Source: Gelidibacter mesophilus DSM 14095 (lineage in GTDB: Bacteria; Bacteroidota; Bacteroidia; Flavobacteriales; Flavobacteriaceae). From it: a DNA stretch of 64,000 nt. A model generated the notes under the pieces. It made no database searches, was not told where the DNA came from, and saw only the letters and a program-made list of their open reading frames with translations. A program made the translations under genes and the position numbers. Shown one piece after another: positions 18,583-34,500 of this stretch (within the stretch, counting starts at the first letter, position 1; every line of letters starts with the position of its first letter). The DNA is taken from NCBI RefSeq assembly GCF_000423005.1, contig NZ_AUHD01000005.1, forward strand, positions 310,001 to 374,000. The letters run 5' to 3'.

Positions 18583-19560
18583 ATGAAAAAATGGCAATTT
18601 ATTGGCATAATTGTATTGAATTTGTCATTTTGGAGCTGTATAAAAACAACTGATAGCAAAGCAGTTAAACTAGCACATGGTTTAGATGTCAATCATTCTG
18701 TCCATAAAGCCATGTTGCATATGGCGGAAGATTTACAACAGATTTCAGGAGGAAAGATGACACTTAAAATTTATCCAAATCAACAATTGGGTTCTGAGCG
18801 TGAATGTTTGGAGTTGCTTCAAATTGGAAGTTTGGAAATGACCAAAGTTTCAGTGGGCACCTTAGAGAATTTTGCTCCTAAGATGAAAATCTTTGGACTT
18901 CCATTTCTCTTTAAAAACAAACAGCATGCTTTTAACGTACTAGATGGTCCTATTGGCGACGAACTTTTGAATGATGCCGAGAAATATTGGCTAAAAGGGT
19001 TGTGTTATTATGATGCCGGAAGTCGTAGTTTCTATACTAAGAACAAACCAATAGAAACCCCGAAAGATTTGAAAGGTCTCAAGATACGTGTCATGGAAAG
19101 TGTAACTGCAATGAATATGGTTCAAGAATTGGGTGGTTCACCAACACCTATTTCTTGGGGTGAACTATATACGTCATTGCAACAAGGCGTTGTAGATGGT
19201 GCTGAGAATAATCCCCCTAGTTTTTACCTCTCGAAACATTATGAGGTTTGCAAGTACTATTCTTTGGATGAACATACCATGTTGCCAGATGTCCTTTTAA
19301 TTGGAACTTATTTTTGGAATAGTTTAACTGAGCAAGAACAGAAATGGTTACAGAAAGCAGCGAATCAATCTGTGCCTTACCAAAGAAAACTTTGGGAAAA
19401 TGCCGAAAATGAAGCGTTGGTCGCATTAAAAGAGGCAGGTGTAGCCATATCGTTTCCAAACAAGACTGCATTTATTGAAAAGGTAAGTGGTGTCCTTGAA
19501 CCTTATAAAAACGATGCAATAATGTATGATTTGATTCAGAAAATAAGAAACACAAAATAA
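18583..19560 (+). CDS. dctP: TRAP transporter solute-binding lipoprotein (DctP family)
   Basis: A 325-residue DctP-type binding protein. Its signal ends FWSC (lipidated Cys19), as usual for Bacteroidota. The family features are the opening KLAHGLDVNHSVHKAMLHMAE, the linker AGSRSFYTKNKPIETPKDLKGLKIRVM with the substrate-carboxylate-binding Arg169, GGSPTPISWGELYTSLQQGVVDGAENNP and ALKEAG near the end. Binding proteins of this type next to uxuA/uxaC usually take up hexuronates. No dctQ or dctM membrane gene follows, so the protein is an orphan here and needs partners encoded elsewhere, or the locus has lost them. Confidence 0.92.
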   Translation: MKKWQFIGIIVLNLSFWSCIKTTDSKAVKLAHGLDVNHSVHKAMLHMAEDLQQISGGKMTLKIYPNQQLGSERECLELLQIGSLEMTKVSVGTLENFAPKMKIFGLPFLFKNKQHAFNVLDGPIGDELLNDAEKYWLKGLCYYDAGSRSFYTKNKPIETPKDLKGLKIRVMESVTAMNMVQELGGSPTPISWGELYTSLQQGVVDGAENNPPSFYLSKHYEVCKYYSLDEHTMLPDVLLIGTYFWNSLTEQEQKWLQKAANQSVPYQRKLWENAENEALVALKEAGVAISFPNKTAFIEKVSGVLEPYKNDAIMYDLIQKIRNTK

Positions 19561-19872
19561 ATGCGTGAATAATTCTTCTACCTTAAATGTTTTATCTCTT
19601 GGAAAGAAAAGCACTTCTAGTTTTAGTGCTGTGATGATCATCTATACTTAGAAATCAGAACCGAATATCCGAAGTAATATAGGCTTCATCGCCTATTGAT
19701 TACTAATCCCATTTGGGACTGGTAGTTGGTATTTGGCCATCGTAAAATTAAAATAATTGAAAATGTTTAAAAAGTAAAGTCTTGATTTTGTTCAACCGAT
19801 CTTCACAAAACGCTTAATCGTATATTATCTCAAAGTCTTAAATAATGAAATTACGATTTGTTTCTTCGATGA
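19561..19872. other. Intergenic region between convergent dctP and the SDR gene
   Basis: A 312-bp stretch with no open frame and no trace of the expected dctQM genes. A weak TCCCATTTGGGA inverted repeat lies near 19708-19720 but it has no T-run. Confidence 0.5.
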
Positions 19873-20694
19873 TTATACTCCTGAAAATGCGCTGAACCCA
19901 CCATCCACATGAACAACAATTCCAGTGACAAAACGTGAAGCGTCGGAACATAGCCATAGAGCTGTACTGATTAATTCTTCCGCTTCACCGAAGCGATTCA
20001 TTGGTGTATTGTTGATAATGGTTTGTCCCCTTCCTGTTAAAGTGCCGTCATGGTTTAATAACAAATCCCTGTTCTGTTCGCCAATGAAAAATCCAGGTGC
20101 AATAGCATTGACTCTTACGTTAGTGGATAGTTTTATCGCCATTTCAACAGCTAACCATTTAGTGAAATTTTCAATAGCGGCTTTTGAAGCAGAATAGCCC
20201 ACCACCCTTGTTAGAACTTGTTGCGCGGCAATAGATGAGATGTTTATGATACAGCCTTGTTGCTGTTTTGCAATTTCTTTTCCGAAAACCAAGGAGGGCA
20301 ACACCGTGCCTTTTAAGTTCAAATTGGTTACGCAATCAAAATCGTCCATCTCCATTTCAAAAAAATCTTCATCAGGTTGTATGGTGGCACCTTTTAAATT
20401 TCCGCCTGCCGCATTGATTAAAATATCAATTTTTCCGTAGGTGGCGATAATTTCTGATTTTGCATTGTCCAATGATTTTTTGTCGAGTACATCTGCTGAA
20501 ATTCCCATGGCATTACCACCAAGATTTTCTATTTCCTTCACCTTTGAATCAATTGTTTCTTGAGTTCTTCCCAAAATAACCACGTTTATGCCTTCCAATG
20601 CCATTCCGTTTGCAATAGCACCTCCTAAGGCTCCTGAGCCACCTGTAATTATAGCAACCTTACCTTTGTAATTGTGTTTGATCATAGATGGCAA
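19873..20694 (-). CDS. SDR oxidoreductase, probable D-mannonate oxidoreductase (fructuronate reductase)
   Basis: A 273-residue classical short-chain dehydrogenase. It has the nucleotide-binding GGSGALGG (18-25), the NAAGG motif (about 94-98), the catalytic serine in NISSIA (about 151-156), Tyr167-x-x-x-Lys171 in YSASK, and the C-terminal RFVTGIVVHVDGGFSAFSGV. SDRs with this tail found beside uxuA and uxaC reduce D-fructuronate to D-mannonate, replacing the unrelated UxuB. That supplies the missing middle step of the pathway here. It is convergent with dctP and is the last gene of the PUL. The start may be residue 4 (MIKHNYKGK). A 2-keto-3-deoxygluconate-type dehydrogenase is the main alternative. 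Confidence 0.85.
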   Translation of the reverse strand: MPSMIKHNYKGKVAIITGGSGALGGAIANGMALEGINVVILGRTQETIDSKVKEIENLGGNAMGISADVLDKKSLDNAKSEIIATYGKIDILINAAGGNLKGATIQPDEDFFEMEMDDFDCVTNLNLKGTVLPSLVFGKEIAKQQQGCIINISSIAAQQVLTRVVGYSASKAAIENFTKWLAVEMAIKLSTNVRVNAIAPGFFIGEQNRDLLLNHDGTLTGRGQTIINNTPMNRFGEAEELISTALWLCSDASRFVTGIVVHVDGGFSAFSGV

Positions 20695-21310
20695 TATATT
20701 GAATTTTTTATGAAATAGACATGTTTTCTGTTGTATTAATAAGCTTGTTAAGGATCTAAATGTTGTTCTATGTGCTAAATAAATAATATTGTGCGGTTCT
20801 AATAATATAGAGTAGAAACCTTAACAATTCAGAATGCTTTATGAATTGATTAACGGTTGGGTGACGTAGATTACATCATTCCTATTGCCCTACGAATTCC
20901 GTATGTTTTATGACTGATTATAAGAATTAAATTAAACACAATCAAATAAAATGAAAAGCTTTAGAGGTTATTGGTTTATAGAGTTACCATTAGTATTGAT
21001 AACGAAAACTGAAATCTGTGATTTTTATCATTTCTGTGTATTTACAATATTCATTTAATACTTAGAAGTTGTTGTTTTTGGTTGGGTTATAAATTTTAAT
21101 TTTTGGGGAGTTTTCATTTCATAAATTTAAACCAACATAATTAAATTGAAGATGTTGATCTCTCCAGTCTAATTTTTATTAAACTGTTTCAAAATGAAGA
21201 GTTTCTTATAAAATGCCTTCCTCAGAAATGCAAAGACTTCGATTTAGATTTTATTTACTCGTCTATTCCCAATAATAGTAAAACGGTAAAACTCCTTTCA
21301 CAATTTCCTT
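20695..21310. other. AT-rich intergenic region between the PUL and the repeat block
   Basis: A 616-bp non-coding stretch. The left boundary of the integrated element should lie here or nearby, but I see no copy of the tmRNA 3' end or of the recombinase-proximal repeats. A 35-codon reading frame at 20951-21058 is not convincing. Confidence 0.5.
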
Positions 21311-21957
21311 TTTGAAGTTCATTCCGGTTTAACTTCTACTTCTCAATAATAATTCGTTTTCATGATCGTTCAACCCATTCCCCTCCATTCCGCGAAACGC
21401 TCCATTACGGGAAAAGCCCTTTATTAGAAAATCTTGTACACAACTTCAAAGATTCCTATTTCCATTCCGCTTGCCCGCTTCCCGAGAAAAATGGGGAAGC
21501 GGTCAAGCTCCATTCCCTTCTATTATCTTTGAAGTCTAGTCCACTTTAAATCCTCTAAACATGAATAATCAGTTTTCATAACGCACTCAGCCCATTGCCG
21601 CTCTATTCCGCGAAAAGCTCCATTTCGGGCAAAGCGCTTCATTAAAAAGTCTTGGACCCAACTCCAAAGTTTACGATTTCCATTCCACTTGCCCGCTTCC
21701 CGAAAAGAGTCGGGAAGCGGGCAAACTCCATTACAATCTTCGACTTTGAAGTCACGTCCGCTTAACCTTGGCTGAACGAGATAAATCCGTTATCATAATA
21801 GGGAAGCACATTCCCCTGCATTCCGCGAAAAGCTTCATTCCTGGAAAAAAGCTTCCCTGTAAAAGTCTTGGACACCATCCTAAATTTCTACTTTCCATTC
21901 CGCTAACCCGATCCGCTGCACCGGAGCGGAACGCTTCATTCTCATTCCGAAATTGAG
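21311..21957. repeat. Three tandem 217-bp imperfect repeats, each with a hairpin
   Basis: Three head-to-tail units begin at TTTGAAGT (21311, 21528, 21745); a fourth, decayed start is at about 21958. Shared landmarks recur in order: ATTCCGCGAAA at 21387, 21605 and 21820; AAGTCTTGGAC-like; TTTCCATTCC; then a hairpin. In unit 2 the hairpin is a perfect 15-bp stem (21689-21703 with 21710-21724) and a six-base loop. In unit 1 the same stem (21471-21483 with 21494-21506) has 12 of 13 pairs. In unit 3 the stem sequence has changed, but a 6-bp stem (21912-21917 with 21925-21930) sits in the same place. Open frames across it look like shadows. It lies upstream of ssb and could be an origin, a transfer site or a structured RNA. 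Confidence 0.85.
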
Positions 21958-22044
21958 TAGAAGTCCGCCAAATCGGAATTCCATTTAATGATTTGGTACC
22001 GCTTCCTATGTCTTTATACTTCACATAAGCCTTCAGACCTACAG

Positions 22045-22206
22045 CCGCACCCTCACTGCCCTAACCTTTTTTTGCCAGCAAAATACCAACATTTGGAAAT
22101 TGACCGGACTGCATAAACCAGGCTCGTGCCTCGCACTTTTTTATAAGTCCTCAACAATTCCAAATCTTGAAACTGTATTAGCAACAAAAAAAGGTACAGC
22201 GAGGGC
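22045..22206. repeat. Large imperfect inverted repeat upstream of ssb
   Basis: The left arm (22045-22104) pairs with the right arm (22150-22206) around a loop of about 45 bases. Two exact blocks are easy to see: CCTTTTTTTG at 22065-22074 with CAAAAAAAGG at 22185-22194, and ATTTGGAA at 22091-22098 with TTCCAAAT at 22158-22165. The outer part (CGC-ACCCTCACTG against CAGCGAGGGCG) pairs with mismatches. The arms would form a long cruciform or RNA stem. It has the look of a replication or transfer origin, or of an RNA leader. Confidence 0.7.
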
Positions 22207-22209
22207 GCT

Positions 22210-22338
22210 ATGGGAAGTAAATCTAAAATGAATCTTATGAAATCTTACAAAAACATACAAAAGGAAGCGGCACCAACAAAAACAAAAAAGGAAAACGCTC
22301 CAGATATAATAAGTAAATCACTTCAAGCAAATAAATGA
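22210..22338 (+). CDS. Possible 42-residue basic protein upstream of ssb
   Basis: An ATG at 22210, just after the right arm of the inverted repeat, opens a 42-codon frame (MGSKSKMNLMKSYKNIQKEAA, then PTKTKKENAPDIISKSLQ). It is Lys-rich and uses codons like its neighbours. It ends 53 bp before ssb, with a small imperfect hairpin (22342-22350 with 22354-22362) between. No homolog is recognised, and a chance frame in AT-rich DNA is possible. Confidence 0.35.
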   Translation: MGSKSKMNLMKSYKNIQKEAAPTKTKKENAPDIISKSLQANK

Positions 22339-22391
22339 AAACTGTCTGAATGGTTCAGATAGCATTTTAATTAATCTTTAAATATTTTATT

Positions 22392-22736
22392 ATGAGCACT
22401 TTAAAAAATCACGTACAGTTAATCGGAAACGTTGGGCAAGAACCAACCATTATAAACCTTGAGAGCGGTAAGAAAGTAGTCTGTTTTTCACTCGCAACAA
22501 ACGAGTATTACAAGGATGCCAATGGCGAAAAACAAACGGAAACCAATTGGCATACGGTTGTAGCTTGGGGCAAGACTGCCGAAATCATCGAAAAATATGT
22601 AGGCAAAGGCAAGGAGGTGGGTGTTACGGGAAAATTGAAATCCCGAAGCTACGAGGACAAAGACGGCATCAAACGGTACGTAACCGAAATCGAGGCGAAT
22701 GAAATTCTTTTACTTGGTATTAAAAATGACAAGTAA
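22392..22736 (+). CDS. ssb: Single-stranded DNA-binding protein (element-borne)
   Basis: A 114-residue SSB with a single OB fold: LKNHVQLIGNVGQEPTI, GKKVVCFSLATNEYYKDANGEK, TNWHTVVAWGKTAEIIEKYVGKGKEVGVTGKLKSRSYEDKDG and the final strand ITEIEANEILLLG-like. It binds single-stranded DNA during replication or transfer. It lacks the long acidic C-terminal tail (DIPF type) of housekeeping SSB, ending at NDK, which is usual for SSBs on mobile elements of Bacteroidota. Its location in the element, next to likely origin structures, points to a role in the element's own replication or transfer. A terminator follows directly. Confidence 0.95.
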   Translation: MSTLKNHVQLIGNVGQEPTIINLESGKKVVCFSLATNEYYKDANGEKQTETNWHTVVAWGKTAEIIEKYVGKGKEVGVTGKLKSRSYEDKDGIKRYVTEIEANEILLLGIKNDK

Positions 22737-22748
22737 GGTTTAAAAATT

Positions 22749-22786
22749 AAAGAGGGCGTTCCTCTGGAAAGTTGCGCCCTCTTTTT
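22749..22786 (+). terminator. Intrinsic terminator after ssb
   Basis: AGAGGGCG pairs with CGCCCTCT across a 16-base loop, and a T-run follows. It lies 12 bp after the ssb stop codon. Confidence 0.8.
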
Positions 22787-22814
22787 CATTATTAACTCTT
22801 TAAATCAAATTAAA

Positions 22815-23270
22815 ATGAAATCAAAGATTATTTCATCCGTTCGCCTTAAAGGCTCGGGTCACGAATTCCAAAACAAATATGAACCGATGAGTAAAGCACA
22901 AGTTAACGAAATCAAAGAAGGATTGCAACATTTTCACGGTACTGAAATGTTCTATCAAATCCCATTAATTAGAACACGTTTTGCGGACGGTCTAAAATAT
23001 TTGGCCGATGTAGCGGATTGTTTTTGGCTCATTACGGACACTTCGGTAATTGCAAAGAGCCTGATTCCACGTAGTGAATTTATAACTATAGAATTTAAAA
23101 GACTTTCAGAAGAGAGACAAGATTTTACAGGCTACGAAGCTGAAATTATTTATACCGATGGCAATGATAATATTTTAGAAAAACACGGTTATAGGGTAAT
23201 CGATTTTCCGTTTGATGAACTGCGATTGTTTTTTGTAAATGATACTCTGATGTTACCAAGCGAATACTAA
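22815..23270 (+). CDS. DUF6876-like protein of mobile elements
   Basis: A 151-residue soluble protein. The pattern LQHFHGTEMFYQIPLIRTRFADGLKYLADVADCFWLITD and the end DFPFDELRLFFVNDTLMLPSEY match the DUF6876 group (LxQFTGTExYY ... DGVKYMAE ... YWLID ... LLPSEY), small proteins common in Bacteroidota conjugative and mobilizable elements and of unknown function. It lies between ssb and another small gene and probably starts its own transcript, since a terminator precedes it. Family assignment is from memory of the motif. Confidence 0.75.
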   Translation: MKSKIISSVRLKGSGHEFQNKYEPMSKAQVNEIKEGLQHFHGTEMFYQIPLIRTRFADGLKYLADVADCFWLITDTSVIAKSLIPRSEFITIEFKRLSEERQDFTGYEAEIIYTDGNDNILEKHGYRVIDFPFDELRLFFVNDTLMLPSEY

Positions 23271-23713: not shown

Positions 23714-23785
23714 GTCCCGCCAAAGCGGGACGAAAAGGAATAGCAAGAGGGTAACACGCGATGCGATGTTTCGGATTCCTTTTCG
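23714..23785. other. Nested hairpin block, candidate transfer origin
   Basis: A perfect GTCCCGC/GCGGGAC hairpin with a four-base loop (23714-23731) abuts an 11-bp inverted repeat, CGAAAAGGAAT (23731-23741) with ATTCCTTTTCG (23775-23785). The 33-bp spacer is GC-rich (AGCAAGAGGGTAACACGCGA). Inverted repeats next to a GC-rich spacer, about 120 bp before a mobilization gene, resemble oriT sites. No nick site can be assigned. Confidence 0.45.
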
Positions 23786-23907: not shown

Positions 23908-24294
23908 ATGGACTCATTTAAAGGAATTAGATTTAAAAAGGAAACAGCCAAGCGTTTCCAAACATTCTCACGCACACATTTCAAATCGCACACCGAGGCG
24001 ATGGCTACAATGCTCGATTTTTTCTTCTACAACGAGATATCCCCAAAAGAAAAATTGGGTCCTACAGGGCGAACCATCGAAGCCAAATTACTTAAAAGAA
24101 TTAATGCGGTAATCGCTATAATGAGGGTTGTTGAAAAGACCCAAACCAAGCCCACGGTCGCAATGTTGTCAGCATTATTTGAACAGACTGAGCCAGTCGA
24201 GAAGAAACTGATCCTAGAGAAAAATAGGAGCGAGGAGATGGGGCAGGTCCGTTCTCGCGAAAAAGATGCAGTAATCAATAACACCCAGAAATAA
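23908..24294 (+). CDS. BfmA/BtgA-like mobilization protein
   Basis: A 128-residue basic protein. MDSFKGIRFKKETAKRFQTFSRTHFKSHTEAMATMLDFFFYN is a ribbon-helix-helix-like start as in the BfmA/BtgA family, small accessory proteins of Bacteroidota mobilizable elements that bind oriT with the relaxase. The middle (GRTIEAKLLKRINAVIAIMRVVEKTQTKPT) is the conserved helical segment. Normally a relaxase gene follows; here the next gene, which overlaps the stop by one base (TAATG), is not a relaxase. The overlapping frame from 23831 is a shadow. I chose ATG 23908 because the family motif begins there. Confidence 0.75.
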   Translation: MDSFKGIRFKKETAKRFQTFSRTHFKSHTEAMATMLDFFFYNEISPKEKLGPTGRTIEAKLLKRINAVIAIMRVVEKTQTKPTVAMLSALFEQTEPVEKKLILEKNRSEEMGQVRSREKDAVINNTQK

Positions 24295-24962
24295 TGGAAA
24301 AAGTAAATTACATCACTCAACTTAACGTAGCCCTTGAGCACTTCAATAATGATCCTCGGATTAAACAGGGACACATTACCTTGTACTTGGCATTCTTTCA
24401 TATTTGGAACCGGGAATTTTTCAAGAGCACAATAACCATCAATAGGGAATTAACCATGGAAAGAGCAAAGATCAAATCAAAAACAACCTATCATAATATG
24501 GTTAGAAATTTGAATGATTGGGGCTATTTAAAATATTATCCGTCCTATGATCCCAGGAGGGGTTCGGTTATCAGGATGGCCATTTTCTGTACCCAACCAG
24601 TCCAGAAATTGGCTAAGACCGTCCCGGAACCAGACCAAAATATGGTATCTTCTTATAAACAAAAAACATATACAAACAAAAACAAACTGGCAGGCCTAGC
24701 AAGGCCATTTAATATTTTGGAAGTTTTACTTTTTTTTAAAACAAATAACTGGACTGCTGATGAAGGAAAAAAATATTATGAGTATTACCAAGAGAGGGAT
24801 GGGAAATTAAGTAGAGGACTACCAATTAAAGACTGGAAACTGGCCGCGCGAAATTTTGTTGAGAAAGGACGTGAATTAGAGCGGAAAAGGACCATGCCAA
24901 TTTCTGGCTATGTAAATAATCTTCATATAGCAAAAGAAAAGGATTATGGTCAGCCTCTTTAA
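24294..24962 (+). CDS. Winged-helix-like protein of Bacteroidota mobile elements
   Basis: A 222-residue protein. The N-terminal half (ITQLNVALEHFNNDPRIKQGHITLYLAFFHIWNREFF, then LTMERAKIKSKTTYHNMVRNLNDWGYLKYYPSYDPRRGS) resembles a replication-initiator-like winged helix often found after bfmA-type genes in Flavobacteriaceae. The C-terminal part (LEVLLFFKTNNWTADEGKKYYEYYQERDG, GLPIKDWKLAARNFVEKG) resembles a DNA-binding tail. It may control replication or transfer. It is translationally coupled to the preceding gene by a one-base overlap. Function not established. Confidence 0.65.
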   Translation: MEKVNYITQLNVALEHFNNDPRIKQGHITLYLAFFHIWNREFFKSTITINRELTMERAKIKSKTTYHNMVRNLNDWGYLKYYPSYDPRRGSVIRMAIFCTQPVQKLAKTVPEPDQNMVSSYKQKTYTNKNKLAGLARPFNILEVLLFFKTNNWTADEGKKYYEYYQERDGKLSRGLPIKDWKLAARNFVEKGRELERKRTMPISGYVNNLHIAKEKDYGQPL

Positions 24963-25237: not shown

Positions 25238-25525
25238 TTGGGTAAGAAAAAACAGGTACTGTTTCCTAAACATATCGATATTCTCAAGCACATGGGTGAG
25301 AATATAAAATTGGCGCGTAAAAGAAGAAAGCTTACACAGCAGCAAGTATCTGAACGAGCAGATATTGTAAGAAGTACACTATACCTCATTGAGTCTGGTG
25401 CTCCAAGTGTAGCTATAGGTGCATATTTTAATGTATTACGTGTACTGGGGCTTCAGGAAGATTTTTTAAAGCTTGCAGCGGATGACGAATTTGGAAGGAA
25501 GCTCCAAGACCTTGACCTCCTTTAG
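25238..25525 (+). CDS. hipB: HipB-like XRE antitoxin
   Basis: A 95-residue protein with an XRE helix-turn-helix in its middle: MGENIKLARKRRKLTQQQVSERADIVRSTLYLIESGAPSVAIGAYFNVLRVLGL. Followed 51 bp later by hipA. In the family, HipB neutralises the HipA kinase and represses the operon. The start is a TTG at 25238 (GKKKQVLFPKHIDILKHMGENIK); ATG 25292 would cut off the first 18 residues. Because family members carry a similar lysine-rich N-terminal extension before MGENI, I keep the TTG. The palindromic operator upstream supports this start. Confidence 0.88.
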   Translation: MGKKKQVLFPKHIDILKHMGENIKLARKRRKLTQQQVSERADIVRSTLYLIESGAPSVAIGAYFNVLRVLGLQEDFLKLAADDEFGRKLQDLDLL

Positions 25526-25576
25526 CTCATAGTTGTAATTCCAATTAGGTAAGTAATCTCATGAACTAAACTGCAA

Positions 25577-26827
25577 ATGGAGATAGGAAAAACCGATATA
25601 TATATTTACGCACACTGGAAAGGGATGCAAGAACCTCAATTAATTGGGGTGCTTTCGGCATTGCATGCCAAAGGGAAAAAGGCCTTTAGTTTTGAGTACA
25701 ATAAAGATTGGCTGAAATCTAAAAAACAATTGGTTCTTGATCCTGATATACAATTCTATAACGGACCACAATATCCAAACAATAAAGAGAATTTTGGGGT
25801 GTTCTTGGATAGTATGCCGGATACATGGGGAAGAACCTTGATGAAGCGTAAACGAGCACAATTGGCAAGTGAAACAGGCGAAAGAGCGCGAACACTATAC
25901 GATATAGACTATTTGTTGGGTGTGTATGATGAAAGCCGAATGGGGGCATTGCGTTTCAAAACAGATCCTGATGGTCCGTTTTTGGACAACGACAATCTGA
26001 CACCAACACCGCCTTGGTCATCCATCAGAGAGCTACAAGATGCAGCTCAAAACTTTGAAAATGATGGAAATAATGATGAGGTGAAAAAATGGCTGACAAT
26101 TTTAATGGCCCCTGGATCCTCGTTGGGCGGGGCAAGGCCTAAAGCAAATATACTTGATGATAATGGTGACATATGGATTGCTAAGTTCCCATCTAAAAAT
26201 GATACCACAGATAAGGCCGCTTGGGAATACTTGGCATACCAATTGGCATTAAAAGCTGGTGTCCACATGGCACCTTCTCAAATAGAAAAGATATCTGAAC
26301 CTTTCCATACGTTTTTCACAAAACGTTTTGACCGAGAAAATGGGGAACGGATTCATTTTGCCTCGGCGATGACCATGACAGGAAACAATGAAGATACAAT
26401 CAGAGACCATGCAGCAAGTTATCTGGAATTGGCAGAGTTTATCCAAACCAATGGCGCCATGGTCAACGATAATTTGGAACAATTGTGGCGTAGAGTAGTA
26501 TTTAATATTGCCATTTCAAATACTGACGACCACCTTCGTAATCATGGTTTTATCTTGACAAGCCAAGGTTGGATATTGTCTCCTGCCTACGATTTAAATC
26601 CATCCATAGATAAAGATGGTTTGGCCCTCAATATCGACATGGATAACAACGCCTTGGATTATGATTTGGCATTAAGCGTTGGAGATTTTTTTCGATTGAC
26701 AGATAAACAAATGAGCGGCATATTGCTTGATGTTAAACGAGCCATTGCAGATTGGGAAGAACTGGCTGATGAAATAGGCATTTCAAAAAGTGAACAGCAG
26801 TTAATGAGCAAAGCTTTTAATATATAA
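25577..26827 (+). CDS. hipA: HipA-type serine/threonine kinase toxin
   Basis: A 416-residue full-length HipA. It has the N-subdomain, the phosphate-binding loop GSSLGGARPKA (180-190), the catalytic NTDDHLRNH (315-323; Asp317 and Asn322 correspond to Asp309 and Asn314 of the E. coli protein) and the metal-binding SPAYDLNP (Asp339). E. coli HipA phosphorylates glutamyl-tRNA synthetase and causes persistence. Target here unknown. It is not split like HipST. It lies between hipB and the convergent recombinase gene, so it is probably an addiction module of the integrated element. All key residues are present. Confidence 0.93.
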   Translation: MEIGKTDIYIYAHWKGMQEPQLIGVLSALHAKGKKAFSFEYNKDWLKSKKQLVLDPDIQFYNGPQYPNNKENFGVFLDSMPDTWGRTLMKRKRAQLASETGERARTLYDIDYLLGVYDESRMGALRFKTDPDGPFLDNDNLTPTPPWSSIRELQDAAQNFENDGNNDEVKKWLTILMAPGSSLGGARPKANILDDNGDIWIAKFPSKNDTTDKAAWEYLAYQLALKAGVHMAPSQIEKISEPFHTFFTKRFDRENGERIHFASAMTMTGNNEDTIRDHAASYLELAEFIQTNGAMVNDNLEQLWRRVVFNIAISNTDDHLRNHGFILTSQGWILSPAYDLNPSIDKDGLALNIDMDNNALDYDLALSVGDFFRLTDKQMSGILLDVKRAIADWEELADEIGISKSEQQLMSKAFNI

Positions 26828-26897: not shown

Positions 26898-28139
26898 CTA
26901 TTGCTTAATTTTCTGTTTATCACTTTGAATTTTTAATTTCTCCTCAAGAATTTTCATATCATCACTCACTTTTCTGTCCACAATTTTAGCATAATGTTGT
27001 GTGGTTCGGAGCGATTTATGTCCCAGCATTTTACTGACGGTTTCAATAGGCACACCATTCGTTAAAGTCACAGTTGTAGCAAAGGTGTGTCGTGCCAAAT
27101 GGGTGGTTAATGGTTTGGTTATCCCGCAGAGCATTGCAATCTCTTTCAGATAAGCATTGGATTTCTGATTGCTAAACACAGGAATCAATCTGTCAGTTTT
27201 AATCACTTGCGGATCGTAAGCATAGCGATTCAAAATGTCTTTAGCAATAGGTAACAACGGAATACTACTTCGGGTTTTTGTTTTAGTACGATTAATATTA
27301 ATCCATTGCTTTCCATCTATACCAATGGTGATATCTGATTTTGAAAGCTTTTCAACATCCGAATAGGCGAGACCTGTGTAGCAAGAAAAAACAAACATGT
27401 CGCGAACCACTTTGAGCCTGTCAAAGTGTAATTCTTTATTGTAAAGGATATCAATTTCTTCGGCATTTAGATATTCTCGCTCAACAGCTTCAAATTGAAC
27501 TTTGTAATTATAGAAGGGGTCTCTTTCCATCCATTGATTGGCTAAGGCAATTCGGATGATTTTTTTAAAATTATTGATGTATTTCAATGCGGAGTTATGA
27601 TTACAATTTCTGACGGTCTTTAAGAACAATTCAAACTTCTTAATAAATTCGTAATCAATATCTTGAAATCTATAATCATCTTCCTTAAAGACTTCATCTA
27701 TAAATTGTTTTATGTGGCTGTAGCAAGTCCAATACCGTTTAGCTGTACTTTTGGAAATATCCCTACCAATTAGTAGGTCAACCCCGACATTGTGTTTTTT
27801 GAATTCTTTTAACATCAATTTAGTTTGTTTTCCACCCGAGTTAAATTCCTGCATGATTCTCGAAGAAGTAATGTATTCTTCATCATCTTTTAATCTTTGA
27901 TGTATCTTATTGAGTTTGGAAGTTATCATATCCATATACCTGTTAACCATGTCGGCATCATGATTTCGTCCCATCACTCGTGAAGACCTTTTGTTCCATT
28001 GGTTATGATCAATCTTTCTATTGATACTCATGTCAGAGCGCTTACCATTAGCTGTGATTCTTAAATAGATATCACATTTATTGCTCTTTTTACTTCTGCT
28101 TTTTCTAATGAAAAAATTACTGCTAAACCGGTCTTCCAT
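26898..28139 (-). CDS. Tyrosine recombinase (integrase) of the tmRNA-associated element
   Basis: A 413-residue Bacteroidota-type integrase (arm-binding domain about 1-90, SAM-like domain about 120-220, catalytic domain about 225-400). Numbered from the ATG at 28139, the catalytic set is HLARH (His347, Arg350), MLGHKS (His374) and the nucleophile Tyr383 in TTQHYAKI. The first catalytic Arg is missing: CYTGLAYSDVE has Ala258 where TGLR is usual, a change also seen (as Ser) in the CTnDOT integrase group. A GTG at 28160 could extend the N-terminus by 7 residues; ATG 28139 is preferred because the arm-type repeat at 28153-28167 would otherwise overlap the coding region. It faces the 3' end of the tmRNA gene about 250 bp away. 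Confidence 0.94.
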   Translation of the reverse strand: MEDRFSSNFFIRKSRSKKSNKCDIYLRITANGKRSDMSINRKIDHNQWNKRSSRVMGRNHDADMVNRYMDMITSKLNKIHQRLKDDEEYITSSRIMQEFNSGGKQTKLMLKEFKKHNVGVDLLIGRDISKSTAKRYWTCYSHIKQFIDEVFKEDDYRFQDIDYEFIKKFELFLKTVRNCNHNSALKYINNFKKIIRIALANQWMERDPFYNYKVQFEAVEREYLNAEEIDILYNKELHFDRLKVVRDMFVFSCYTGLAYSDVEKLSKSDITIGIDGKQWININRTKTKTRSSIPLLPIAKDILNRYAYDPQVIKTDRLIPVFSNQKSNAYLKEIAMLCGITKPLTTHLARHTFATTVTLTNGVPIETVSKMLGHKSLRTTQHYAKIVDRKVSDDMKILEEKLKIQSDKQKIKQ

Positions 28140-28152
28140 AACGACACTATTA

Positions 28153-28311
28153 AATTGCACACTAAATGTACACTATTAACGAATAATATGCAAATCCTTA
28201 AAGGTTTCAAATATCTGAAAAACAGTCAATTATAATGAATTAGTGTGCAATTTTTAAGAGAGACCTATGGACACCGAATTGCTCACTTTTTAGATGATTT
28301 AGTGTGCAATT
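28153..28311. repeat. Three copies of TTAGTGTGCAATT, probable integrase arm sites
   Basis: ATTTAGTGTGCAATT appears inverted at 28153-28167 and direct at 28297-28311, both identical over 15 bases. A third copy (13 of 13 in TTAGTGTGCAATT) is at 28240-28252. They lie between the integrase start and the tmRNA terminator. Such repeats in mixed orientation flanking a core site are typical of integrase arm-binding sites; the first may also let the enzyme repress its own gene. Confidence 0.75.
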
Positions 28312-28388: not shown

Positions 28389-28783
28389 GTGGAGTCGGAG
28401 AGAATCGAACTCTCGTCCAAACAAGTTACCAAAAGGCCTTCTACACGTTTATTCTTTTCTTGGGTTTTCGATTGCAGGCTGGTTAAAGACAACCCACCTA
28501 CAACTTAGCTTCTTTAGTTTCAGGAGCAAATCAAAGCGCTTTGTTCCCTATGTCAACTTTTACGATGTCTCTAGGCTGACCGCCGCTGACCAGGGCTTTC
28601 AAGAGACATTTAGCCTTCCTACCTAGTAGGAATAAGCGCAATCTTACTGTGATTCAGATTATGCAGCTAAAGCGTAGTTATTCTCGCCGTTTAAAAGTTT
28701 GAAATAGTCTTTTACGTGTTTCAATTTCATTACACGACGTGCTTACCATCTAATAAATCTCGCTGTCAAAACCAGTCGACCCC
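28389..28783 (-). ncRNA. ssrA: Transfer-messenger RNA
   Basis: Read on the minus strand, the gene starts GGGGTCGACTGGTTTTGACAG, the usual tmRNA 5' end, and finishes with the T-arm GAGTTCGATTCTC and acceptor strand CTCCGACTCCAC. The 5' and 3' ends can pair as an acceptor stem. CCA is not encoded. The tag reading frame (28659-28688) encodes GENNYALAA and a TAA, ending in the proteolysis signal LAA. Total length is about 395 bases, which is normal. Long open frames across it are shadows. It acts with SmpB to free stalled ribosomes. tmRNA 3' ends are frequent integration targets, as the neighbouring recombinase suggests. Confidence 0.97.
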
Positions 28784-31214: not shown

Positions 31215-31570
31215 TTTTGTAGGACTAAGCTAAACTTCTTCACCTTTGAAAGGAGGAGTGGAATTTGCTTCAGAAAAGAAGCAAAAGACGAGGTGGTAGG
31301 AATTTGATTAAGACATTTTCAATATCTCATTCCTGAATCTTTAGCTTAATTCACTTTTATTATAGACTTTGACAGTTTTAAAAATAAACCCTTCCGACTT
31401 TAAGCTCTTCCCCGAGCTGAAAGCCACCTTCCCTTGAAGAAAGAGAATGAATTCTTTAGTCTGGACTTGTTTTGAATTGAGGGATAAACCTAAATCCCCC
31501 TCATTTTGAGTACTTCGTGCTTTCCTCTTCCAACTTATTTGAGTTCTCACTGTTTCTATTTAAATTTACA

Positions 31571-31598
31571 CTACCCACTACCCACTACCCACTACCCA
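31571..31598. repeat. CTACCCA x4 tandem repeat
   Basis: Four exact copies of the 7-bp unit CTACCCA end directly at the stop codon of the macroglobulin gene (31599). It is probably a slippage product. The rest of 31215-31570 is non-coding and AT-rich with no clear feature. Confidence 0.8.
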
Positions 31599-34500
31599 CT
31601 ACTTCACCTTCACTCTTATCCCTTCGCTATGACTCGTGAATTCTGGGGCGTACATGCTTTGAATGGTCGTAATGCCATTGCTCATATTCCCGCTATTATT
31701 CACACGTAAGTCGTATTCAAAAACATAGATCCCTTTTGGTAAATAGTCGAAAAAGAAGTTTGTGGCCGCATCTTTTGTGCTTTCATAATAGCCCAATCCA
31801 TCTTGGTATTTATAAGAAGACAATACATTAGTCGGTTCAAAACCTGCCGCGCGCATGTCTTTCATGTGTAGGAATTCCATATCTCTATCGCTTCTTAATT
31901 CGATCCGTACCCTTACCAAATCGCCAACTTTTAAATCGGTTTGAGGAGTGATTTCTGAAATTTGTTCGCCTTTATCCGTGTTGGACTTTAGAAACAACTT
32001 TTTCTTCAATTGCAATGGCGTTTCAGCAAAAGTAATTTTGTCCAAATCTTCGAAATATTGCCAGTATAAACTTCCCCAAGCAATACTTTCACCTTTTTTA
32101 GTTAGGGTGACCTTGGCCATTTCTGGTTTTATTTCAGAGCCATTCCAAGAGGTTTTGTAGTAACCCGTTCCGGCTTCTACTTTAACGTTTTCTAATTTTG
32201 ATGGCTCTATTTTTTCGCCACCAACAAGAACATCAACCATATCCGTCACACTCAACCAATCGCTGCCTTGTAACAACAATGCATAAACGGCTTCTGTGGT
32301 AGCTTTGGTGGTTTTCCAGCTATTGGTCTGTTTGTTTTTGAGCAACCAAATTTTTAAATTATCAATGGTTTTAACGTCATTTTGAATTTCTGAAAAAGCT
32401 TCAATCATTAAAGCTTGGGTTTCAATTGGCGCCTGGTACCAAAACCAAGAGGCTTTATTATCTTTCCAATACATGCCCAATTCGTCAGAGGTAATACTGT
32501 TTTCCTCTAGGGACTTTAATATTTTTCCAGCGGTCTTTGAATCATTAGTACGATGTGACACCATCGCCATTAAGCCTTTGGCGTATAACGAACGACCGGT
32601 CCAATAATTCTGGATTTGCGTTTGGTAATAGTTGGTGATGGTCTGTACTTCTTTGCTTTTTTCGATTTTAGGAAAAAAGCTGCGCATATATAAATAATGC
32701 AATTGAGTGTAGCTCAGGTGGTCTTTGCTCAAATCAGCATCTTTATTGTATTTGCGAAGGTCATTGTATTCTTGAACAAATTCCGAGTCTAAATAAGTGA
32801 TGGCCTTTTTTATCATCTCGTTTGAAGATCCTTCAACTGCGCTCATGTTGACATCTAGTTGTTTTAAATGTCCAAAACCACTAATAATTTGCTGCGTAAT
32901 GAATCGATTAGGTCGTCCGCCTTCAAACCAAGCCCAAGCGCCGTTGCCCATTTGATTGTTTTGAAGCTTACGTTGTGCCGATTGCAATTCATTACTCATT
33001 TTATTCATATCGAATAATAAAGCGATGCGTTTCTTTTGTTCGGTTTCAGATTGTGCGTCGCGCAACCATGGCGTTTCTTGAATTAAAATACTTTTCAGCT
33101 CCTCATTCTTTTCGAGATTGCTGATCAAGGCATCCTGTGAAGCCCATTGATCAAAGACTTCCTTAATCCTCGGATTGCTGTTGGCAATGTGACTTGCCAA
33201 AGCATTGGCGTAATATCTACTAAAGATTTGCTCGTTACAGTCATAAGGATATTCCATTAAATACGGCAAAGCCTGAACGGCATACCAGGCCGGATTGGAA
33301 GTCATCTCTAAAGTGAGTTTGTGATTCTTTAAGGTTTTAGAACTGTTGGCGCCGCTTGTCGAAGCCAATTTATCCAAAGTAAAAGTCCGTGTTTCGTTCG
33401 AGCGGATCCACATTGGTAGAGTTTCTGTCACCAACATTCGGTTTGAAAGAACCGGAAGTAAGTTTTGTTCCCCATCACTAAAAGCGCCCGACTTTGCAAT
33501 TACTTTATATTGAACAGCATCTACGTCATCTGGAATTGTAAGACTCCAAGTGATTTGGGTGTTTCCTTTGGCATCCACAATAAAGGATTTTCTGTTGTCA
33601 GAATTCTTAAGTTTGACGTCAATGGTATTTCCTGTCATAGCATCAAAAAGTTGCAGAATCGCTTCGCCAAACAATGAGTTTTCGGTCAGGTTGGCAATTT
33701 TAGTGCTGATGGAAATTTCATCGCCATGACGTAAAAAACGAGGCGCATTCGGGATGACCATCAATTCTTTTTGGGTGACCGTTTCCAAAGTGGTTGTTAC
33801 ACTTTCTAAAGATTTGGTATGCGCCAATAATTGTAATTTCCATTTGGTCAATGCTTCAGGAGTCGTAAAACTAAATGTCACATTGCCGTCGGCATCCGTT
33901 TGCAATTGTGGAAAAAAGAAAGCGGTTTCCTGAAGGTTTTTACGGATGGCAACAGATTGCAAATCTTCTTTAGGTTCAGGTGGCATTGGCGCAATTGGTG
34001 GATTGGCCAATTGTTCCTGAGTTCCATAACCTGTTACGACCATTTCATCCAAACTTACTTCAGCTTCTTCAGCCCTTGCGTTTGAAGGATTCATTTGGAC
34101 GGCACTGGCTTGTCCTCTGATCATTATAGATTGCCTTCCATTACCAAAATACAACCCAAACCAATTCCATGTATCATAACTTTTATAGGGATAGCTTAAA
34201 TCAAAGTTCGGTAAATAGACATAAAAGGCACTGTTTCCAAAACTTTTAATGGCACGTCTTGGATTGTAACTATAGTAAAATGATTGATTTAACGGACTGA
34301 ATTGCCATTGGTGAGGTTCAAACTGATCTAAAGATAGGTCATACATGCTGGCCAATAGTTCAGCACTCACTTTATCACCTTGTGGCCCTTTGATATTGAA
34401 ACTCCAAGTTTCATCGGTTCCTGGTTGTAATTTATCTCTAAACGTTTTGGTTTCAATAGTCAATTCCGATTTCGGATAAGGCACCGAAATGTTTTGTGTT

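Follow-up and report, generated by a model that had tools for sequence, protein, structure and literature searches.

Gene content of the locus

The window, i.e. the whole stretch of 64,000 nt from Gelidibacter mesophilus that was analysed, contains an integrated element that starts with a tandem array; this is followed by ssb (22392), a DUF6876 gene (22815), bfmA (23908), a gene for a 222-aa protein (24294), an HTH gene (25238), hipA (25577), an integrase gene, and tmRNA. The following features are discussed below:

21311–21526, minus strand: unit 1 of the repeats in the folded element, of the distal type according to the tree of units
21527–21743, minus strand: unit 2, distal-type (tree of units), stem arms 21654–21703 and 21710–21759
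21744–21960, minus strand: unit 3, proximal-type (tree of units); an HMM finds a unit at the same place in 83 of 109 loci
21993–22276, minus strand: long-range closing helix P1, arms 21993–22007 and 22262–22276 (inverted repeat, arms in relatives, MFE)
22040–22227, minus strand: multi-helix domain on which alignment A3 and model R1 are based (39 pairs, 12 changed on both sides)
22283–22318, minus strand: block 3, the right-hand border of the element, almost invariant (pattern match 22290–22315)
22392–22736, plus strand: ssb, leading-region gene (PF00436)
22815–23270, plus strand: DUF6876 gene (PF21781); a RadC-like family takes the same place in other loci
23742–23771, minus strand: predicted oriT, conserved motif AGCAAGAGGGTAAC (plus strand) with a hairpin; role putative
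23908–24294, plus strand: mobilization gene of the bfmA/btgA family (NF041200)
24294–24962, plus strand: gene for the 222-aa protein found in satellite-like elements; no family matched above the cut-off
26898–28160, minus strand: tyrosine integrase of the element, adjoining tmRNA (28389–28783)

Because no relaxase gene was seen in it, the window's element looks like a mobilizable satellite. The 222-aa protein is common to relaxase-less satellites and has no Pfam/NCBIfam match above the cut-off and no PDB sequence relative. An HTH and HipA-like pair (25238–26827) represents satellite cargo. Eight relatives from the same genus were compared over the tmRNA region: the main match begins at the 3′ end of the tmRNA, to within about 4 nt, in six of them and continues into the integrase side in two (G395 and G1099), which supports insertion at this site. 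No att repeat of the tmRNA 3′ end above 11 nt was found on the left side (19501–21400). The AlphaFold model of the DUF6876 protein is fairly confident (pLDDT 85). An anti-restriction fold was considered for this protein and rejected, as the model had no PDB match at E ≤ 0.001; its function could be related to the leading region, e.g. anti-defence. Elsewhere in the window (31569–31602), the heptamer CACTACC is repeated 4.9 times at the end of a 2026-aa reading frame.

The tandem array belongs to a larger fold

The array consists of three head-to-tail units of ~217 bp, which start near 21311, 21527, and 21744 (spacing 215–218 bp) and end at 21960, upstream of ssb, in agreement with the original prediction. 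Over 142 nt, unit 1 shares 82% identity with unit 2, and there is a weak fourth trace (67%) at 21229–21261. The array is absent from the output of Tandem Repeats Finder at default score. The perfect 15-bp stem that had been noted in unit 2 was recovered (TTGCCCGCTTCCCGA/TCGGGAAGCGGGCAA), as was the slightly decayed stem of unit 1 (21469–21483/21494–21508, 93% match). The exact stem of unit 2 sits in a 50-nt imperfect inverted repeat with arms at 21654–21703 and 21710–21759, which are 70% complementary. The hairpin that had been noted originally forms the tip of a longer stem, with GGAC..GUCC as its anchor.

Each of the three repeats is a copy of the end (outer) domain of a larger conserved fold. 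Beyond the repeats noted at 21311–21957, the fold runs ~370 nt further to the right, to ~22330. The folded element is ~0.55–1.0 kb long, and the unit core, where detected, is in most loci located ~500 nt to the left of block 3. Comparison of the loci revealed noncoding blocks that are conserved beyond the units, i.e. block 2, block 3 (22283–22318), and block 4, the latter upstream of bfmA. A conserved small ORF (MGSKSKMNLMK..) over blocks 2–3 was rejected as a candidate: it is open in the window and, read by eye, broken in relatives.

The region 21573–22330 has z-scores of −6.9 with RNA energies and −7.7 with DNA energies on the minus strand, and of −6.7 and −6.4, respectively, on the plus strand. 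None of 20 shuffles folded as well as the native sequence in any of the four combinations of strand and energy set. A chance origin of the fold is unlikely because of these z-scores together with the covariation of stems across loci (see below).

Distribution and related loci

A 26-nt pattern of block 3, allowing up to 2 mismatches, was found at 117 places in 70 of 397 genomes and 56 of 237 genera of the window's family, taken as Flavobacteriaceae. The reversed control pattern had no match in the same 397 genomes. In an order-wide sample, 8 of 395 genomes contained the pattern, all of them in the window's family. The covariance model R1, the E-values of which are rough, detected 4 of 395 genomes in a phylum sample under strict filters, one of them from another family; there, the order ssb, bfmA, mobB, mobC is the same by eye, with RadC in place of DUF6876. 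A blastn search with the unit region (21300–22000) against 72,556 plasmids and 50,697 phages gave no match, and the exact pattern had none in IMG/VR. An Rfam scan gave no match at gathering level; the sole two matches in 20700–22800 were below the gathering scores.

The locus set comprises 109 loci, i.e. 99 of the 117 block-3 places, the window, and 9 loci collected earlier; it contains at least one duplicate, as L011 and L094 are apparently the same place. Three of the 18 places that were not fetched belong to the window's own genome and were read through other loci. Both parts of the element were detected by HMM in 83 loci, 71 of which remain at <90% identity. The own genome carries three further copies. 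The copy on contig 6, an ICE (L016), has an array of four units, after which come ssb, DUF6876, bfmA, a MobB relaxase gene, and a coupling-protein gene; a recombinase gene resembling XerA and integron integrases lies left of this array and points away from it (L016:338–1468). On contig 11 (L017), two units precede ssb, DUF6876, bfmA, a DUF5712 relaxase-like gene, and a coupling-protein gene, and block 3 is absent; here, the units may persist on their own, or the other parts of the fold have diverged. The copy on contig 4 (L018) has a single unit. Seven loci that were found via the 222-aa protein (among Flavobacteriaceae, in Gelidibacter, Winogradskyella, Aquimarina, and Maribacter) each contain at least one unit, bfmA, and the gene for the 222-aa protein, and their integrases are mostly unlike that of the window (25% to 53% identity where aligned).

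A single unit is present in 68 of the 83 relatives, two units in 11, three in 3, and four in tandem in 1. In a tree of 64 units, 22 of the 26 array ("distal") units cluster apart from the "proximal" units, i.e. those that adjoin the rest of the fold in relatives (support 80/86), and the labels change 4 times on the tree compared with 20 times when shuffled. Because the distal units group separately, the arrays consist mostly of an older second (distal) unit type. The tree also shows a recent unit duplication in the 4-unit array of L016. The different stem sequence of unit 3, which had been noticed originally, is accounted for by these types, since unit 3 is proximal whereas units 1 and 2 are distal. 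Three loci (L081, L112, and L120) have a duplication of block 3 with part of its domain, at a distance of 192–198 bp; other parts of the fold besides the units can therefore also become tandem.

Covariation and the folded strand

For the unit stem, 93 distinct stems were aligned solely on the GGAC and GTCC anchors, without any folding; 14 of 114 units have no anchor and were left out. Counted from the GGAC anchor, position 12 is paired in 85 of the 93 stems and position 15 in 86, compared with 43 and 42, respectively, expected from shuffling. Pairing at positions 18–20 is no better than in shuffles. Alignment A3 (44 sequences) comprises 39 pairs, 12 of which have changes on both sides. Its cells are paired in 96.4% of cases, compared with 90.2% after shuffling and 43–61% after sliding, and its covariation is 0.254 compared with 0.134 for shuffles, none of 500 reaching the native value. 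Compensatory changes are thus present in the unit stem and in four of the five A3 helices. For the closing helix P1, a search of 71 sequences located the arms in 44, and the spacing shows that some of these were clearly misplaced; pairing is kept despite altered sequence in many of the 37 distinct arm pairs (raw pairing, without shuffle control). All covariation sets were cut to <90% identity or to distinct arms. The original claim that the structure itself matters is therefore strongly supported: stems do covary across loci, and a lack of covariation in homologs, which would have spoken against it, did not occur.

The wobble pairs assign the fold to a strand. In the unit stems, 192 of 1581 cells are G·T and 16 are A·C on the minus strand, whereas on the plus strand the wobble-type mismatches are nearly all A·C. 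A3 shows 212 G·T and 10 A·C in 1716 cells, again on the minus strand. Because the wobble pairs are G·T or G·U on the minus strand and A·C on the plus strand, the folded strand is the minus strand. The pairing drawn originally is real, but the selected fold is on the strand opposite to that drawing. A plus-strand RNA fold had also been considered in the analysis; the first plus-strand alignments gave a consensus energy of −2.1 (54-sequence class), and the wobble test then reversed the strand.

The consensus energy of A3 is −75.5 on the minus and −45.5 on the plus strand, and that of the 5′ parts of 54 class-I loci −90.2 and −56.8, respectively. The 11 class-II (satellite-type) loci show little strand difference (−54.9 and −51.0). 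Single-sequence folding energies were lower on the minus strand in 14 of 14 tested loci, all of class I. With DNA energies the A3 consensus is weak (−5.7 vs −75.5 with RNA energies).

A predicted oriT and the transferred strand

Upstream of bfmA, the conserved motif AGCAAGAGGGTAAC lies next to a covarying hairpin (23742–23771); together they are a good oriT candidate for the MobB/BfmA family. The motif is on the same side of the fold, and in the same orientation relative to it, in 100 of the 109 loci. The motif is missing from 9 loci; in three of these, less than 2.3 kb of right-hand sequence is available, and in the other six (L086, L093, L111, L118, L119, and L144) it is absent despite a full right-hand stretch. 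The repeats themselves had been the first idea for the oriT and were abandoned for the better candidate, because the hallmarks of an oriT, i.e. a nic-region motif by an inverted repeat near mobilization genes, are found at 23742–23771 and not at the repeats. An origin, a transfer site, or a structured RNA had been proposed originally. A transfer site proper is unlikely, as the better candidate lies 1.5–2 kb to the right; an origin, in the sense of single-strand initiation, and a structured RNA remain candidates.

The genes to the right of the element have a fixed orientation: bfmA is present in 88 of the 109 loci, ssb in 67, where it directly follows the element, mobB in 65, mobC in 59, and DUF6876 in 40. 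Among 96 ORFs between ssb and the oriT, 36 encode DUF6876 proteins and 33 belong to one family with a RadC representative, all of these in plus sense. Satellites without ssb still retain the folded element.

In relaxase systems such as R388 and RP4, the transferred strand has a hairpin on the 5′ side of nic. At the oriT candidate, the order on the minus strand is the hairpin (5′), the conserved ACCCTCTTGC, and the leading region. This geometry points to the minus strand as the one that is transferred (T-strand), because the hairpin lies 5′ of ACCCTCTTGC there, as in R388 and RP4. The folded strand and the T-strand would then coincide, since both are assigned to the minus strand.

Signals of RNA and of single-stranded DNA

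In the stems of A3 and the units, G·U makes up ~12% of the minus-strand cells and A·C ~1%, and two A3 positions have fixed U·G pairs (44/44 and 37/44). Wobble asymmetry was considered as proof of an RNA and rejected. The predicted T-strand fold of Frpo, for which promoter activity on the T-strand has been demonstrated (13 sequences), has 177 G·T and 7 A·C, compared with 68 and 26 on the other strand; the comparison is loose, as the Frpo pairs were chosen by folding and the unit-stem pairs by anchors. Because Frpo also shows an excess of G·T over A·C, the asymmetry cannot decide between RNA and single-stranded DNA. In the hairpin of the predicted oriT, presumably real single-stranded DNA, G·T was found in 4 of 819 cells (91 of 185 candidates used, picked for pairing). 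The Frpo fold stays strong with DNA energies (−88.2).

The flavobacterial −10 motif TAnnTTTG had 3 matches upstream of block 3 in 56 sequences of 163 nt, was found in 5 of 109 loci in the stretch up to ssb or 250 nt, and did not occur at a fixed place near block 3 on either strand; a promoter form of single-strand initiation is thus unsupported. Block 3 contains a TATAAT in plus sense. At the far end, 77 non-redundant ends showed no terminator excess (2–5 of 77 per 40-nt bin, 2–8 on the other strand). These promoter and terminator scans were based on consensus sequences, which unconventional signals would escape. Of the properties expected for a structured ncRNA gene, a covarying fold was thus found, and an own promoter and terminator were not found by these scans.

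RNA-type loops are not enriched, with 4 UUCG and 33 GNRA loops compared with 5.6 and 45 expected from base shuffles. GCGNAGC, a very stable DNA mini-hairpin, is enriched on the minus strand (34 instances vs 3.4 expected; its complement, 1 vs 3.1) and is absent from Frpo. It forms the apex loop in 12 of 34 predicted folds with RNA energies and in 4 of 34 with DNA energies, and a direct scan of perfect hairpins showed no enrichment of GNA triloops (7 of 156 vs 14 of 207 in the flanks). Loop types were therefore rejected as proof of single-stranded DNA and are only a hint.

Possible functions of the folded element

The element is a conserved minus-strand fold whose position and orientation relative to ssb and the predicted oriT are fixed. 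Judged from sequence, it is carried in the leading region of conjugative elements of the MobB/BfmA type and of relaxase-less, satellite-like elements. Our preferred reading, to which we give an even chance, is that of a leading-region single-strand initiation element, similar to Frpo or an sso and with an unrelated fold, that acts on the T-strand. The T-strand would enter the recipient as single-stranded DNA, whereupon its minus-strand region would fold. The folded region would serve as the initiation element and recruit the host RNA polymerase or primase, which would start plus-strand synthesis towards the oriT. As an outcome, ssb and DUF6876/RadC could be transcribed early, the complementary strand could be primed, or both could happen. 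Where satellites lack ssb, it is the priming role that would be retained. Extra distal units would add initiation or binding sites.

The same strand might instead be transcribed. A new large structured ncRNA, running leftward on the minus strand with block 3 as its 5′ end and the 217-nt units as a repeated 3′ domain, and affecting transfer or the host in trans or in cis, is possible, and we would lean against it. The multi-branched fold, its invariant unpaired stretches and fixed U·G pairs, the excess of G·U over A·C, the consensus that is much stronger with RNA than with DNA energies, and the sharp, nearly invariant 5′ block all fit an RNA. However, no flavobacterial promoter was found upstream of block 3, terminators are not enriched at the other end, and neither are UUCG and GNRA loops; moreover, the wobble asymmetry is similar in the predicted fold of Frpo, a known single-stranded DNA structure, and the orientation relative to the oriT is constant in 100 of 109 loci. 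If it were an RNA, it would be a new class of ~0.5–1 kb tied to conjugation.

A T-strand structure that serves for protein binding and does not initiate synthesis, i.e. a docking site for the relaxosome or BfmA, a signal for the coupling protein, or a second oriT, appears improbable. It would be compatible with bfmA in 88 and the predicted oriT in 100 of the 109 loci, and with the presence of the element in relaxase-less satellites. Yet the element persists while the genes up to the oriT vary from nothing to 1–2 kb, ssb directly follows it in 67 loci, and for none of the 109 loci was an oriT motif, with up to 2 mismatches allowed, listed within the element. We have very little confidence in functional plus-strand hairpins, be it a structured leader of the ssb mRNA or attC-like sites: the hairpins are visible on the plus strand, which also folds better than its shuffles (z = −6.7), but there A·C mismatches break the pairs (192 of 1581 cells) and G·T is rare (16). 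Plus-strand hairpins are also at variance with a conservation that ends at block 3, before ssb, and with the retention of the element in satellites without ssb. The variable copy number and the partly decayed unit 1 might suggest decaying interspersed repeats without function. This reading is refuted by the covariation; compensatory changes, the constant place beside the oriT, and the block-3 pattern in 70 of 397 genomes show more than the decayed, scattered copies that were named originally as an outcome against a function.

The single-strand initiation element would, with a probability somewhat short of even, be the first one known from a leading region in Bacteroidota: a large, modular, and expandable T-strand fold that is unrelated to Frpo or known ssos and common to conjugative elements and to relaxase-less satellites possibly riding on them. 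The expression of the conjugated strand and its conversion to double strands have been worked out for few elements. The question becomes testable in Bacteroidota with a fold whose signature occurs in 70 of the 397 family genomes and which comes with leading genes, minimal satellites, and a predicted oriT.

Comparison with known systems

The original statement that no element with this layout has been described was too strong: Frpo upstream of ssb in F-like plasmids and the STAXI motif have similar layouts, and the fold of the present element is different. In literature searches, which had subscription papers largely outside their coverage, we found no description of the present element or of a Bacteroidota example.

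STAXI (Ssbp, Topoisomerase, Antirestriction, XerDC Integrase) is described as mainly a pseudoknot with frequent UUCG loops, and its authors weighed the same question of RNA or single-stranded DNA (PMC2864571). As far as described there, it resembles the present element in having tandem structured repeats near genes for ssb, antirestriction, and integrase. In contrast, the present element has a long stem and a multi-helix domain, and UUCG is not enriched. STAXI is included in Rfam, and the Rfam scan listed no STAXI match.

The sso1 of ICEBs1 is reported as a structured, orientation-specific site downstream of oriT; structure can outweigh sequence in single-strand origins, and the authors expect many or most ICEs to have such an origin, to be found by structure and direct tests (PMC4595007). 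The present element is likewise a structured, orientation-specific site by the predicted oriT of a mobile element. Compared by description, sso1 has three stem-loops resembling the sso of pBAA1, whereas the present element has 0.5–1 kb with tandem domains. The ICEBs1 sso and the origins of RCR plasmids occur in Bacillota, the present element in Bacteroidota.

Single-strand promoters of the Frpo/ssi type have been described (PMC9849209, PMC11541004). On the F plasmid, a Frpo immediately precedes ssb, the genes point to the oriT, and the Frpo2 upstream of ssb was reported to be required for early expression (PMC9849209). A survey of leading regions used five known Frpo/ssi sequences for its searches, and "bacteroid" has no occurrence in its main text. 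The carriers of the present element are ICEs and satellites of Flavobacteriaceae, unlike the enterobacterial plasmids with Frpo/ssi. Its multi-helix fold is larger, and the searches for consensus motifs revealed no reconstituted −35/−10 boxes. As in F and ColIb-P9, its place is in the leading region, ssb is the next gene downstream, the genes point toward the oriT (here the predicted one), and there are several copies per element. The fold would be on the T-strand, as judged from the oriT geometry; an RNA from the same strand would fit equally well, and class II shows little strand difference. G·T exceeds A·C in both predicted folds. As the unit region (21300–22000) had no blastn match in the plasmids or phages, the present element is classed as one that would work like Frpo, not as a member of that family.
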